From NCBI GenBank assembly GCA_026005175.1, contig BPKO01000001.1:372001-436000 (forward strand): 64,000 nt of DNA, given 5' to 3'. The notes beneath the pieces are model-generated. The model had not been told where the DNA came from. It searched no databases and saw only the letters and a list, made by a program, of their open reading frames with translations. Position numbers and translations under genes: made by a program. Below are positions 6,042 through 31,640 of this stretch, in pieces. How positions within the stretch are numbered: position 1 is the first letter of the stretch; each line of letters opens with the position of its first letter. Source of the stretch: Candidatus Tectimicrobiota bacterium (GTDB taxonomy: Bacteria; Tectomicrobia; Entotheonellia; Entotheonellales; Entotheonellaceae).

Positions 6042-6611
6042 TCAGAGCACCTTGGCCAGGTACTTGCGCAGGTAGTCGACGCCCGAGGCCACGCTCAGCA
6101 CCAGCCCGATTCCGAGGACAAGCAGCCCGGGGAGCTGAAGCAGGGGCACGTTCACCATAAGCAGCGCCGACCCCACCACGAGTGCCAGCATCTTGTACTT
6201 GCCCATCGTCTCTGCCGCAATGATCAGGTGTTTTTCTGCGGCCAGGGCGCGCAGGCCCGTCACCGCCAGCTCGCGACAGAGAAGAATGGCCACCATCCAT
6301 GCCGGCACTTGCTGCCGCCCCACCAAGGACACGAGCGCCGCCGTCACCAGCAGCTTGTCGGCAATGGGGTCCAGCAGCTGCCCCAGCCGCGTGATCTGGT
6401 TGGTGCTGCGGGCCAGGTGGCCGTCGAGCCAGTCGGTGAAAGCCGCCAGCAAAAACACGGCCGTGGCCAGCAGCGGGTACCACCCCCGCGGCGACATGAG
6501 AAATACCAGAAGAATCGGCACCAGAAAAATGCGCACCAACGTGATACGGTTGGGCCAATTGAGCGAGCTCGACTCCCGTGGCGCGGGAGACGGAGAGGGC
6601 TGCACGGCCAT
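6042..6611 (-). CDS. pgsA: CDP-diacylglycerol--glycerol-3-phosphate 3-phosphatidyltransferase PgsA
   Basis: Integral-membrane enzyme making phosphatidylglycerol phosphate from CDP-diacylglycerol and glycerol-3-phosphate. 189 residues. The CDP-alcohol phosphotransferase signature DGxxAR...GxxxDxxxD is seen as DWLDGHLARS followed by GQLLDPIADK. About six hydrophobic segments. Sits between the lytic transglycosylase (12 nt upstream) and plsY. pgsA followed by Gly-Cys-Leu tRNAs mirrors the E. coli pgsA-glyW-cysT-leuZ order. Confidence 0.93.
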   Translation of the reverse strand: MAVQPSPSPAPRESSSLNWPNRITLVRIFLVPILLVFLMSPRGWYPLLATAVFLLAAFTDWLDGHLARSTNQITRLGQLLDPIADKLLVTAALVSLVGRQQVPAWMVAILLCRELAVTGLRALAAEKHLIIAAETMGKYKMLALVVGSALLMVNVPLLQLPGLLVLGIGLVLSVASGVDYLRKYLAKVL

Positions 6612-22242: not shown

Positions 22243-25028
22243 TTATGGCGTCGATGACGCCCCGGGCGGGGCGGGAGAAGGCGTCAGCCGCTGGGGAGGC
22301 CTTGCCGACGGCCCAAGCGGGAAGAGTTCCAGCAGCAGGGGCAGCACCACAAAAGCAGCCACCAGGCTACTGCCCACCGCCAGGGTGAGGAGAAGACCGA
22401 GGCTAAAAATTCCGGTATGCCGGGCGACCAGCAGGCTGCCAAAGCCCACCATGGTGGTGAGAGAGCTCAGGAGCACGGCTTTTCCGGTGCTGTGGCCTAG
22501 CAGCGCCGCCGTGGGGGCCTCTTGCGCGCGGTGCACGAGGTGGATGCCGCTATCGACGGCAATGCCCAGGAACAGAGGCAGGATGATCAGGTTCGCCATG
22601 TTGAACTGAAGGCCGCACAGGGCCATCCCGTCAGCCGTCCACAGCGCCCCCACCAGCAGAGGCACCAAAGAGAATAGCGCCGGTCGCGGCCGCCGGAAGA
22701 AGACCGCGACCAGGGCCACGATCACCGCCAGGGCATACAGCCCACCTCGCGTGTAGCCCCCGCTGCATCTGGCGGATTGCCTCATACGCCACCACCGGCG
22801 GACCGCTCACCTCGGGGTCAACAGCCTGCAGCTGGGTGACAAAGGCCGCCATGGGCTCGCGCTCCCAGATGTTGTCGCGGGCAAAAATACGCAGCAGGTA
22901 AGTCCCCTCCGGGCTCACAAAGCGCTGTCGCAGCAGTGGCGGGATGTCGTCCAGCGTCACCGGCGTAGGGTGCACGTTGCGCCGCAGCAGCGAGAGCTTG
23001 TCGGCCATGTCGGCCAGCAGCAGCTGCTGCAGACGTTCCAGCGCTGCCTGCGCTTGGGCTGCGGGAAGGCGCTGCAAGTGATCCTGCACCGCCAGCAGGG
23101 CCTCACGGGCGGCACGGAGCTGCGCTTCTGAGGGGCGCTGGCGCGGATCCCACTCGGCAGGCGGGCGCTGCAACTTAAAGCGGATCTTGTCGAGCAGCAG
23201 GGCAAGCTCTTCCAAGTCAACCGGCTCGGCCTCGTCCCACTTCCCGTGCAGCGGCTCGACGTAAGGGGCCAGGGCGGCCACCCGCTGCAGCCGCTGCGGC
23301 TGGTCTGGTGGCAGCAGCGAGGCAAGGCTCTCGACGCGTTCCACCACCGGCAGGGCCCGAAAGGCCTCCTGCTTGCGGTACAGCTCCGGCAGCGAAGTGG
23401 CGCGGCTGACGGCATACCACGAGGAGCGCTCGGCTTCGGCAAGCAGGCGGTGCTCCCAGACCACCGACTCTGTTCCTCGTGCTTGCAGCCGCAGCAAGTT
23501 GTAATCGAACTGCGGCTTGGGCAGCCACACCACCCCGGCCAGGGTGACCAAGCCAAGCCCGGCCAGCACGGTGCGGGGATAGCGCCGCAGCGGCCGCAGG
23601 GGGTCGAGGGGCTGCGGCTGCCAGATCCCCACCCGTCCCGGCCGCTGCCGTTCGCTTAAGGCCAGCAGCGCCGGCAGCACCGTCCAGCTGGCCAAAAGGC
23701 ACAGAAGCACGCCGCTGCCGGCAATGAAGCCCAGCTCGGCCAGCCCCCGGAAGTTGGTGAGCATGACCGCGTAAAACGCCAGCGCCGTGGTAAGGGCGGC
23801 CATGATCACCCCGGGACCCGTCAGGCGGTACGCCGCTTCTAGCGCCGGGGCAAAAGCCGCGCCGCGGGCGCGCTCCTCGGCGTAGCGGGCCAGTAGGTGG
23901 ATGCCAAAATCGATGCCCAGGCCGATGAGAATGGGGGTGAAGGCCACCGAGAGAATGTTGAGATGCCCCACCGTGAGGGTGGTAAAGCCCAGCGACCAGG
24001 CCACGGCGACGACCAGGGTGGCCACCACCAGCAGCGGGCGCCGCACCTCGCGGAAGGTGAGGATGAAAAGCACCGCTACCCCCAGCAAGGCAAGCCCGGT
24101 GGCCAGCTGCATGTCGCGCTGCGAGACCAGCATCTCGTCAGCGGCCAGGGCATTGCCGCCGGTCACTCCGGCTTCTACTTCGGGGAATTCCTGCTGCACG
24201 GCGCGTAGGTGCGCGCGCAGGGCCTGCAAGGGCGCGGCATGCTTGACAAAGCCGGTGGCGGGGCGGCCCTCCACAAGGACAAAGAGCAGGCGGCCTCCTT
24301 GTGCGGTGAGGTAGCCGTCGCTGGCCCACAAGTCGTCCTCGTCGAGGAAAAAGCGCCCCCAGGGCGAACGGTAGACGTACGACGCCGGGGCGGCCAGCAC
24401 CTGCGCCATTTCCGTAAACAGCGCGGTCAGGAACGACACGTTCTGGGTCTGGGTGCCCGCTGCCGGGCCGGCAGCCCCTTCAGCACCCAGCAGGCCGCCG
24501 GTGAGGTGGGCCACCAAGGCCTTGCTGATCTCGCGGTTGATGCCGGCCAGCAAAGACACCAGCCCGGGACGCTCAAGCAAGTCGGCCAGCAGCTCCTGGG
24601 AATCCTCCAGGCGCTGCTGCAAGGCCCCCCAGCTTCTCCGGTGACAGCAGGAGCAGCTTCTTGCCTTCCAGGGAGGAGGTGTCGAAGCGGGCCACGATCT
24701 CGCCAAAGTGGCGCTCATCGGCTGCCAGCCGGGCGGCCAGGGCATCGACGAAGCGCTTGCCGCGTTCGGGATGCGACGCAGCTACCACGACGATAAAGGC
24801 GTCGAGGTTGGGAAAAGCGCTTTTGAGCTGGCGATACACCTGGACGGAGCGCGAGTGCGCGGCCATCAGGGCGTTGCGCGAGGTTTCGAACTCCAGCCGC
24901 GTCGCTGTAACCCACAGCGCCGCACCGGCCAGGGCCACCGCCAGCCACACCGCGGCCCAGGGGACCGCGGTGACGGCGCGCACCGGGGCCACGAGCAGCC
25001 GCCGTGTCCACCTGGGCTCTGAAGGCAC
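22243..25028 (-). CDS. MMPL/RND lipid exporter, HpnN-like, two frameshifts
   Basis: Inner-membrane proton-driven exporter of about 927 residues after repair. Twelve-helix RND plan with two sterol-sensing/MMPL halves: first half GHLNILSVAFTPILIGLGID and FGIHLLARYAEERARG; second half LQFNMANLIILPLFLGIAVD and SGIHLVHRAQEA. Large periplasmic loops lie between TM1-2 and TM7-8. The architecture and FDYNLLRLQARGTESVVWE resemble hopanoid transporter HpnN. The frame breaks at a C-run near 24627 and another near 22759; removing one base at each restores it. The substrate (hopanoid or another lipid) is inferred. Confidence 0.8.
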
Positions 25029-25049: not shown

Positions 25050-25430
25050 TTACGAGGAAGGCAGGGGTTGTCCGACCACCGGCAAGCCGGCTGCACTCCA
25101 TGCCGTGAAGCCGTTGATCATGAACGCCACGTTGCGATAGCCCAGCTGCTGGAGAGTCTGCCCTGCCAGGGCAGCGCGGCCGTCGCGGCGTCAGTGAAGG
25201 ATGATGGTCGTGGACTTGTCGGGGATGACCTCGGCGATACGGAACTCCAGCAAGCCCCGGGGCAGCAAAACGGCCTGGGCGATGTGTCCCTGGTCGTACT
25301 CCTCTTTTTCCCGCACGTCGAGGATCACCACCGGCTCGCCGGCCTGAAGCTTGGCGTAGACTTCCTGGGCGGTCAGCGACGGCACGGCCGCTTTGGCCGC
25401 CTGTACCATCTCATCAACGGTGGTTGCCAT
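25050..25430 (-). CDS. Candidate selenocysteine-containing rhodanese (in-frame TGA at catalytic Cys)
   Basis: Single-domain rhodanese, 126 residues if the TGA at 25193-25191 is read as selenocysteine 80. Before it: LTAQEVYAKLQAGEPVVILD, VREKEEYDQGHIAQAVLLP, and STTIILH. After it the same frame continues RRDGRAALAGQTLQQLGYRN, VAFMINGFTAWSAAGLPVVG and stops at TAA (25050). The family has CxxGxR-type loops after IVLY/IILH, so the TGA stands precisely where the nucleophilic Cys belongs. Start ATG follows GAGAAGGAGA. A 7-bp hairpin lies 16 nt beyond the TGA. First gene of an operon with the HpnN-like exporter (21 nt downstream), TolC-like channel and flippase. Alternatives: a TGC-to-TGA base error, or a 79-residue truncated protein. 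The strict conservation after the TGA argues against truncation. Confidence 0.8.
25158..25174 (-). promoter_or_regulatory. Candidate bacterial SECIS hairpin in the rhodanese mRNA
   Basis: Minus strand CTGCCCT-GGC-AGGGCAG forms a perfect 7-bp stem with a GGC loop. The stem begins 16 nt and the loop 23 nt after the TGA. Known bacterial SECIS elements lie just downstream of the UGA, with a short stem and a G among the first loop bases, so spacing and loop fit. It also encodes conserved rhodanese residues, so chance pairing is possible. Confidence 0.55.
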
Positions 25431-30385: not shown

Positions 30386-31562
30386 CTATCCTTTGGGCAA
30401 TCCCAAGATCCGCTCGCCGATGATGTTTTTCTGGATCTCCGAGGTTCCAGAGTAAATCGTCCCGGCGCGACTCCAGAGAAAGCTGTACTGCCAGTCGCCG
30501 GCAACCGCGTACTTGGAGCCGCGCATCAGCTGGGCGTAGGGGCCCCTTGCAGGCTCATTCCGAGCTCCTGCAGCCACTTGTCCAGCTCGCTCCAGTAAAG
30601 CTTGTCCAGAGAGGCTTCCGGACCCGGGGGCTGGCCGCGCAAGCGGCGGGGTGATGCCGCGGTAGAGGTTGAGCAGCATGATTTCAGTACGGATGTAAGC
30701 CTCGGCCAGCGCCTGACGCACCACCGGGTCTTGGGCCAACGGCTGGCCGTTGCGATAGGTGGTGCGGGCAAACTCGATCATCGCCTCCAGGTGCTGCTTG
30801 ATGCGCACCTGGGTGCCCAGGGTGGAAATGCCCCGCTCGTACGTCAGGGTGGTCATGGCGATGCGCCAGCCCTCGTTGACCCTCGCCCACCACGTTGTGT
30901 CGCGGCACGCGGACGTTGTCGAAGAAGACCTCGTTGAACTCGGCGTGGCCGGTGATTTGCCGCAGCGGGCGGACGGTGATGCCGGGGCTGTGCATGTCGA
31001 CCAGAAAGAAGGTGATGCCTTTGTGTTTGGGGGCGTCGGGATCGGTACGCGCCAGCAAGATGCACCAGTCGGCGTACTGCCCCAGGCTGGTCCAGATCTT
31101 CTGCCCGTTGATGACAAAAGCGTCCCCATCCAGGACAGCTCGCGTTTGCAGCGAAGCGAGGTCAGAGCCGGCGTTGGGTTCGGAGAAGCCCTGGCACCAG
31201 ATCTCTTCAGCGCTCAGGATCTTGGGAATAAAGCGCTTCTTCTGCTCTTCGGTGCCGTGCTCGATGAGGGTGGGGCCGACGATCATGATCCCCAGGACAT
31301 TGGCCGGTTGCGGGGCACGCGCCCGCGCCATCTCCTGGGCATAAATGGCCTGCTGCACCAGCGTCGCGCCCTGGCCTCCGTATTCCTTTGGCCAGTGAAT
31401 GCCGAGCCATCCCCCCTCATAGAGCTTCCGCTGCCAGGCACGGCGGTAAGCAAACGCGGCGTCCTGGTCTTCGGGTTCCGGCTCACGCGGCAGGTTGTCT
31501 GCCAGCCACTGCCGCAGTCGCTGGCGGTAGGCTTCGTCTTGCGGGGAAAACCGCAGATCCAT
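30386..31562 (-). CDS. Acyl-CoA dehydrogenase (FadE17-like), several frameshifts
   Basis: FAD enzyme of about 390 residues after repair. LGIHWPKEYGGQGATLVQQA, QGFSEPNAGSDLASLQTRAV, INGQKIWTSLGQYADWCILL, and C-terminus GTIYSGTSEIQKNIIGERIL. The usual catalytic Glu of YEGT is Ser here (YSGT). That is normal for the actinobacterial FadE-type subfamily that works as mixed tetramers with another subunit. The frame breaks near 30881 (CCC), 30648 (GGGG) and 30539-30546 (GGGGCCCC, one G and one C too many); removing these four bases restores whole codons. Start ATG follows CAGGAGA. Confidence 0.82.
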
Positions 31563-31611
31563 GGCGTTTCTCCTGTCAGCCATCGCAGTCGCCAAGCTGC
31601 TGGACGCGCTT

Positions 31612-31640
31612 ACCGTAACACGTTTGCCGCCATTTTGCAA
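31612..31640 (-). promoter_or_regulatory. Promoter for the FadE17-like dehydrogenase
   Basis: Minus strand TTGCAA (31640-31635), 17 nt spacer, TACGGT (31617-31612), about 50 nt before the ATG. Confidence 0.4.

Follow-up and report, generated by a model that had tools for sequence, protein, structure and literature searches.

Catalogues of selenoproteins have included rhodaneses that contain selenocysteine (Sec) from about 2005 onwards (PMC1088965; later PMC2398784, PMC9312934). An earlier sequence-only reading of the DNA studied here had also mentioned such proteins, from metagenome surveys. A 2026 catalogue lists five forms, all with a rhodanese domain carrying Sec encoded by UGA and with the motifs UxxS, UxxG, CxU, UxxG and UxxxxU (PMC13188914); differing Sec motifs within one domain are treated as separate subfamilies (PMC9312934). 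Sec-containing rhodanese folds are also found in NF041203 (rhodanese_LYCAU), in which Sec stands two residues past a Cys (CxU), and in TsoB (NF045694), a rhodanese/DsbD fusion. We found no report in the literature of a tested function for any Sec-rhodanese.

The window analysed here, i.e., the whole stretch of 64,000 nucleotides from a Candidatus Tectimicrobiota bacterium, carries a rhodanese gene interrupted by an in-frame TGA, the UGA of which is almost certainly read as Sec. The features discussed below are the following.

25050..25430, minus strand: predicted Sec-rhodanese coding sequence, 126 aa, ATG at 25430, TAA at 25050-25052
25191..25193, minus strand: in-frame TGA, codon 80, predicted Sec80 at the position of the rhodanese catalytic Cys
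25158..25174, minus strand: putative bSECIS hairpin CTGCCCT-GGC-AGGGCAG, stem of 7 bp, loop of 3 nt with G as its first letter, spacing of 23 nt between TGA and loop
25438..25444, minus strand: Shine-Dalgarno-like AAGGAGA 5′ of the ATG, from reading of the sequence
22243..25028, minus strand: HpnN-like MMPL/RND transporter, about 21 bp downstream of the rhodanese gene, frameshifted near a G6 run (24625-24630)
G000:C9:120631-121554, minus strand, elsewhere in the window genome: selD (L083), in-frame TGA in the N-terminal active-site region, ACAG-U-ASKM

Read on the minus strand from 25430 to 25050 with the TGA translated as a residue, the gene encodes MATTVDEM...STTIILH-U80-RRDGRAALAGQTLQQLGY...PLPSS followed by TAA (the letters of the plus strand at 25191-25193 are TCA, hence TGA on the minus strand). 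This translation bears out the proposal of the sequence-only reading that 46 codons follow the TGA before a TAA, giving a product of 126 residues, and that the TGA falls exactly on the catalytic codon; the strand had been left unstated there. The match to the Pfam rhodanese domain PF00581 extends from residue 20 to residue 114 and bridges the TGA (73.5 bits; threshold 22.2), so the part that follows the TGA belongs to the same domain. The start codon is credible because an AAGGAG is located about 8 nt 5′ of the ATG, at normal spacing (GCAGAGAAGGAGACGCGGAAATG), and no signal peptide is evident in the N-terminal sequence (MATTVDEMVQAAK...). Standard gene calling would render this gene as a fragment stopping at the TGA. 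A GC3 scan of the window for further TGA-interrupted genes left the rhodanese gene as the sole convincing case; a hit at 6044 on the minus strand appears to be the junction between two successive genes, where one ends and the other begins. The sequence-only reading had named no other gene in the window with an in-frame stop.

Orthologues of the window protein are present in three further genomes (G001, G002 and G003) from two genera other than that of the window organism, giving a family set of four genomes and three genera in a collection that contains five genomes of this phylum. Whereas the catalogued forms 1, 2 and 4 exhibit UxxS or UxxG, the proteins of this family exhibit UxxD (window) or UxxE (G001-G003) followed by [G/N]R. 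The Uxx[D/E][G/N]R type is unlisted among Sec-rhodanese forms, being set apart from WP_010941598.1, MBM9537886.1 and MCY3690685.1 by their listed motifs alone, and has been found so far in only one family of an uncultured phylum. The window protein belongs neither to NF041203 (42.5 bits, cut-off 115, and no CxU) nor to TsoB (32.3 bits, cut-off 805). Its best NCBIfam model is MoeB PRK08762 (NF006444), of whose 387 positions it matches 3-116 with 94.4 bits; the score is under the cut-off of 449 bits because the window protein, a standalone protein of 126 aa, is devoid of the second (adenylyltransferase) domain. Among Cys rhodaneses, its nearest relatives are for the most part domains at the N-terminus of longer proteins of the MoeB type, such as a 337-aa frame of the genome G035 that is 46% identical and has Cys where the window protein has Sec, together with standalone Cys proteins from other lineages that have a similar loop. 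Two of the latter (L105 in G320 and L110 in G043) are similar in size and their loop VTYCGG[EG]TRxxLSAHTL is a close parallel to VTHUGGENRAVLAGQTL of the Sec form, but they carry the catalytic Cys despite the presence of SelB and tRNA-Sec in both genomes, and have other gene neighbours.

The TGA is present at the codon in question in 4/4 genomes of the family, at protein identities to the window rhodanese of 58% (G001), 50% (G002) and 50% (G003). Relatives at E <= 1e-20 were detected in 49 of 386 genomes, and the TGA in just four of these, precisely those of the family; the close non-Sec relatives that were read have Cys at the position of Sec80, one example being VTYCGGETRGSLSAHTLQ, aligned with VTHUGGENRAVLAGQTLQ of the Sec form. 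The alignment of homologues suggested in the sequence-only reading thus gives either Cys or TGA at codon 80. The four Sec proteins form a single clade (bootstrap 96, SH-aLRT 90), as would be expected if Cys had been replaced by Sec a single time, in the family's ancestor; the tree does not resolve the order of the deeper branches. A scan of viral_contigs with the orthologue alignment yielded zero relatives, and a scan of genome_contigs just more distant Cys rhodaneses, for the most part from Clostridia. Purifying selection at the protein level persists beyond the TGA as before it, with dN/dS of about 0.23-0.46 downstream and about 0.12-0.41 upstream; downstream of the TGA, divergent pairs have dN of about 0.27-0.39 against dS of 0.8-1.2.

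A hairpin CTGYCCT-GGC-AGGRCAG, with a 7-bp stem and a GGC loop throughout, can be formed in all four Sec-rhodanese genes inside the coding sequence, 17-33 nt downstream of the UGA. Its folding energy is −10.4 kcal/mol in the window and G001 and −8.3 kcal/mol in G002 and G003, and it lies within every published bound for a bSECIS element: a loop of 3-9 nt, a stem of 4-16 bp, a G in the first two loop positions, a distance of 16-37 nt from the UGA and an MFE of at most −7.5 kcal/mol (PMC13188914). One C-G pair is replaced by U-A in G002 and G003, both sides having changed in a compensatory manner; at the codon level, one of the two changes turns Ala into Val and the other alters a Gly codon synonymously. 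At this site the window gene and its G001 orthologue share seven consecutive codons without a difference. The SECIS core is stronger than in synonymously randomised coding sequences (p = 0.024, 0.026 and 0.0003); the whole 45-nt stretch after the UGA is not unusually stable, only the core is, and the equivalent core of the Cys relative from G035 is not stronger than its own randomised versions (p = 0.54). As hairpins of equal strength follow 2-5% of the codons in window genes, the SECIS evidence weighs mainly via its conservation.

The search of the genome for selA, selB, selC and selD, also proposed from the sequence, detected all four. The tRNA-Sec scores 76.5 bits (gathering score 47) and has a UCA anticodon according to ARAGORN; selA (637.8 bits) and selB (391.5 bits) are adjacent, and selD (378.9 bits) contains an in-frame TGA of its own near its start, at the site where Sec is known from other SelD proteins. 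These genes are located on contigs C3 and C9, the rhodanese gene on C1. Both selB and tRNA-Sec were found in each of G001, G002 and G003. The TGA in the orthologues, the Cys in the homologues and this machinery support the assignment of UGA to Sec made in the sequence-only reading, and we regard it as almost certain, judging from these sequences, that codon 80 is decoded by the organism's own SelA, SelB, SelD and tRNA-Sec, directed by the bSECIS hairpin within the coding sequence.

That the TGA stands for a Cys codon misread in sequencing, or mutated in a pseudogene, is extremely improbable. The assembly, the completeness of which is estimated at 77%, apparently has indel errors, e.g., in the HpnN-like neighbour, where the frameshift at the G6 run 24625-24630 is likely a homopolymer error; however, the identical TGA recurs in the assemblies of three other genomes, of which two consist of a single contig, and selection continues after it. 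Error and decay are excluded by this conservation within the family and by the coding selection past the TGA; a lone substitution error, already judged improbable from the sequence, is excluded by the three other genomes. We also consider it very improbable that the TGA acts as a true stop, giving a conserved truncated protein of 79 residues with rare read-through. TGA does serve as a stop elsewhere, as the orthologues of G001-G003 themselves appear to terminate in TGA, so that a single message would use TGA in both ways, for Sec and for termination. Against a stop at codon 80, the rhodanese domain is completed only by the 46 codons that come after the TGA, on which purifying selection acts, the codon is precisely the catalytic one, and a SECIS hairpin and the full Sec machinery are present. 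Conservation, selection and SECIS led us to reject error, pseudogene and true stop. Elsewhere in the window, an acyl-CoA dehydrogenase-like gene (30386-31640, minus strand) is distributed over two frames that overlap (30684-31640 and 30386-31129); another indel error is the likely cause.

The active-site loops read U-R-R-D-G-R in the window protein and U-A-G-E-G-R or U-G-G-E-N-R in the orthologues, i.e., U-x-x-[D/E]-[G/N]-R, and U80-RRDG-R85 aligns without gaps with the CAGGxR of relatives. The loop has the rhodanese features of six residues with the nucleophile first and an Arg at +5; Asp or Glu occupies +3, where Gly is usual, and this acidic residue could alter the reaction. The catalytic Cys is replaced by Sec, and the four Sec proteins contain zero Cys, with neither a resolving Cys nor a UxxC motif found in them. 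The AlphaFold model (pLDDT 91.8) places residue 80 between the strand 75-79 and the helix 84-95, which is the catalytic position, and the best solved structural relatives of the window protein are rhodaneses (6mxv, TM 0.87; also GlpE and YgaP).

These features point to a cytosolic single-domain rhodanese in which a selenolate would replace the nucleophilic Cys of the six-residue loop. The selenolate of Sec80 would attack a sulfane-sulfur donor (thiosulfate, polysulfide or persulfide), forming a selenenyl-sulfide intermediate (Se-SH) on Sec80, from which an external thiol would accept the sulfur. Lacking any Cys, the protein could not form a selenenyl-sulfide internally, so that its turnover would depend on an external thiol. 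Judging from the fold, this course of sulfane-sulfur transfer, by Se-SH and then an external thiol, is somewhat favoured. Overall, a Sec80 rhodanese that transfers sulfane sulfur to an external thiol is the best explanation of the sequence data, with a probability of about 75%.

Two other functions can be envisaged for a genuine Sec80, both of which appear unlikely. The protein could handle selenium, with Sec80 carrying a perselenide (Se-SeH) or selenide and supplying selenium either to SelD or to some selenium-modifying enzyme. Delivery of selenium by a perselenide-bearing, selenium-substituted rhodanese has already been put forward (Ogasawara 2001, listed among the references of PMC5877670), and the window organism makes several selenoproteins; the rhodanese gene is nevertheless remote from the genes of the Sec machinery, and G004, G320 and G043 have selB and tRNA-Sec, yet only Cys relatives were found in them. 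A redox enzyme built on the rhodanese fold (a reductase of peroxide, sulfenate or an oxyanion), to which we give the same small chance, would fit the predominance of oxidoreductases among selenoproteins of known function (PMC2398784; PMC9312934) and the acidic residue at +3, which departs from the classical CxxGxR, but the missing resolving Cys and UxxC motif, together with the rhodanese-like loop length and Arg at +5, argue against it.

The operon context mentioned in the sequence-only reading turned out not to be conserved. In the window, the genes after that of the rhodanese encode the HpnN-like transporter of the MMPL type and a protein of the TolC type; in the two other genera, the gene directly downstream of the Sec-rhodanese encodes an FKBP-type isomerase (L055, L056 and L057 in G001, G002 and G003; the FKBP assignment comes from a domain test of the G001 copy, to which the other two are homologous), which is absent at the equivalent place in the window. 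Since G001-G003 have other neighbours, we rejected the idea that the rhodanese, the HpnN-like transporter and TolC serve a common function as an operon.

Further Sec-rhodanese candidates were observed in these genomes. A second one in the window genome (L046, G000:C10:104859-105224, plus strand) has a UxxG motif in FILF-U-AGGGRSSLAAKTLQ (FILF-U-AGGGRSS around the Sec) and a 7-bp hairpin of −10.1 kcal/mol, the loop of which starts 19 nt after the UGA. A third rhodanese with an in-frame TGA (L047, G000:C11:79017-79349, minus strand) is of the CxU type (VVYCT-U-EGETTSA) and scores 85.4 bits with NF041203, under the cut-off of 115. A true member of NF041203 is encoded in G001 (L051, G001:C217:293-625; 174 bits, cut-off 115; FYCA-U), i.e., a known Sec-rhodanese form within the clade. 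Rhodanese-like proteins of G003, G002 and G001 (L048, L049 and L050, respectively) share LYU[T/S]CPHHLASLAY, and no Sec-rhodanese form in the catalogue has their UxC motif. A gene of an unrelated genome (L054, G036:C342:1818-2132, minus strand) contains two in-frame TGAs in VFY-U-T-U-PSEGSA; its UxU motif is missing from the motif list of the catalogue. The window genome also contains an open frame of 669 aa in which four rhodanese domains, Cys-containing and degenerate, are arranged in tandem (L097, G000:C10:116525-118015, plus strand), and a similar frame is present in G001 (L096), in an arrangement as in PDB 1yt8.

It is conceivable, although we consider it doubtful, that the family runs several Sec-rhodaneses per genome (Uxx[D/E], UxxG, and CxU or UxC) as a selenium-based relay network for sulfane sulfur or selenium, which has not been described so far; if true, an uncultured bacterial family would possess a dedicated selenium-based sulfur-trafficking network. 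The Uxx[D/E] proteins add a well-supported selenoprotein subfamily to the Sec-rhodanese forms, with Sec as its predicted sole chalcogen nucleophile. As it is 126 residues long, has just one reactive selenium and is closely related to Cys proteins, the window protein would offer a clean test of the contribution of selenium to sulfur transfer.
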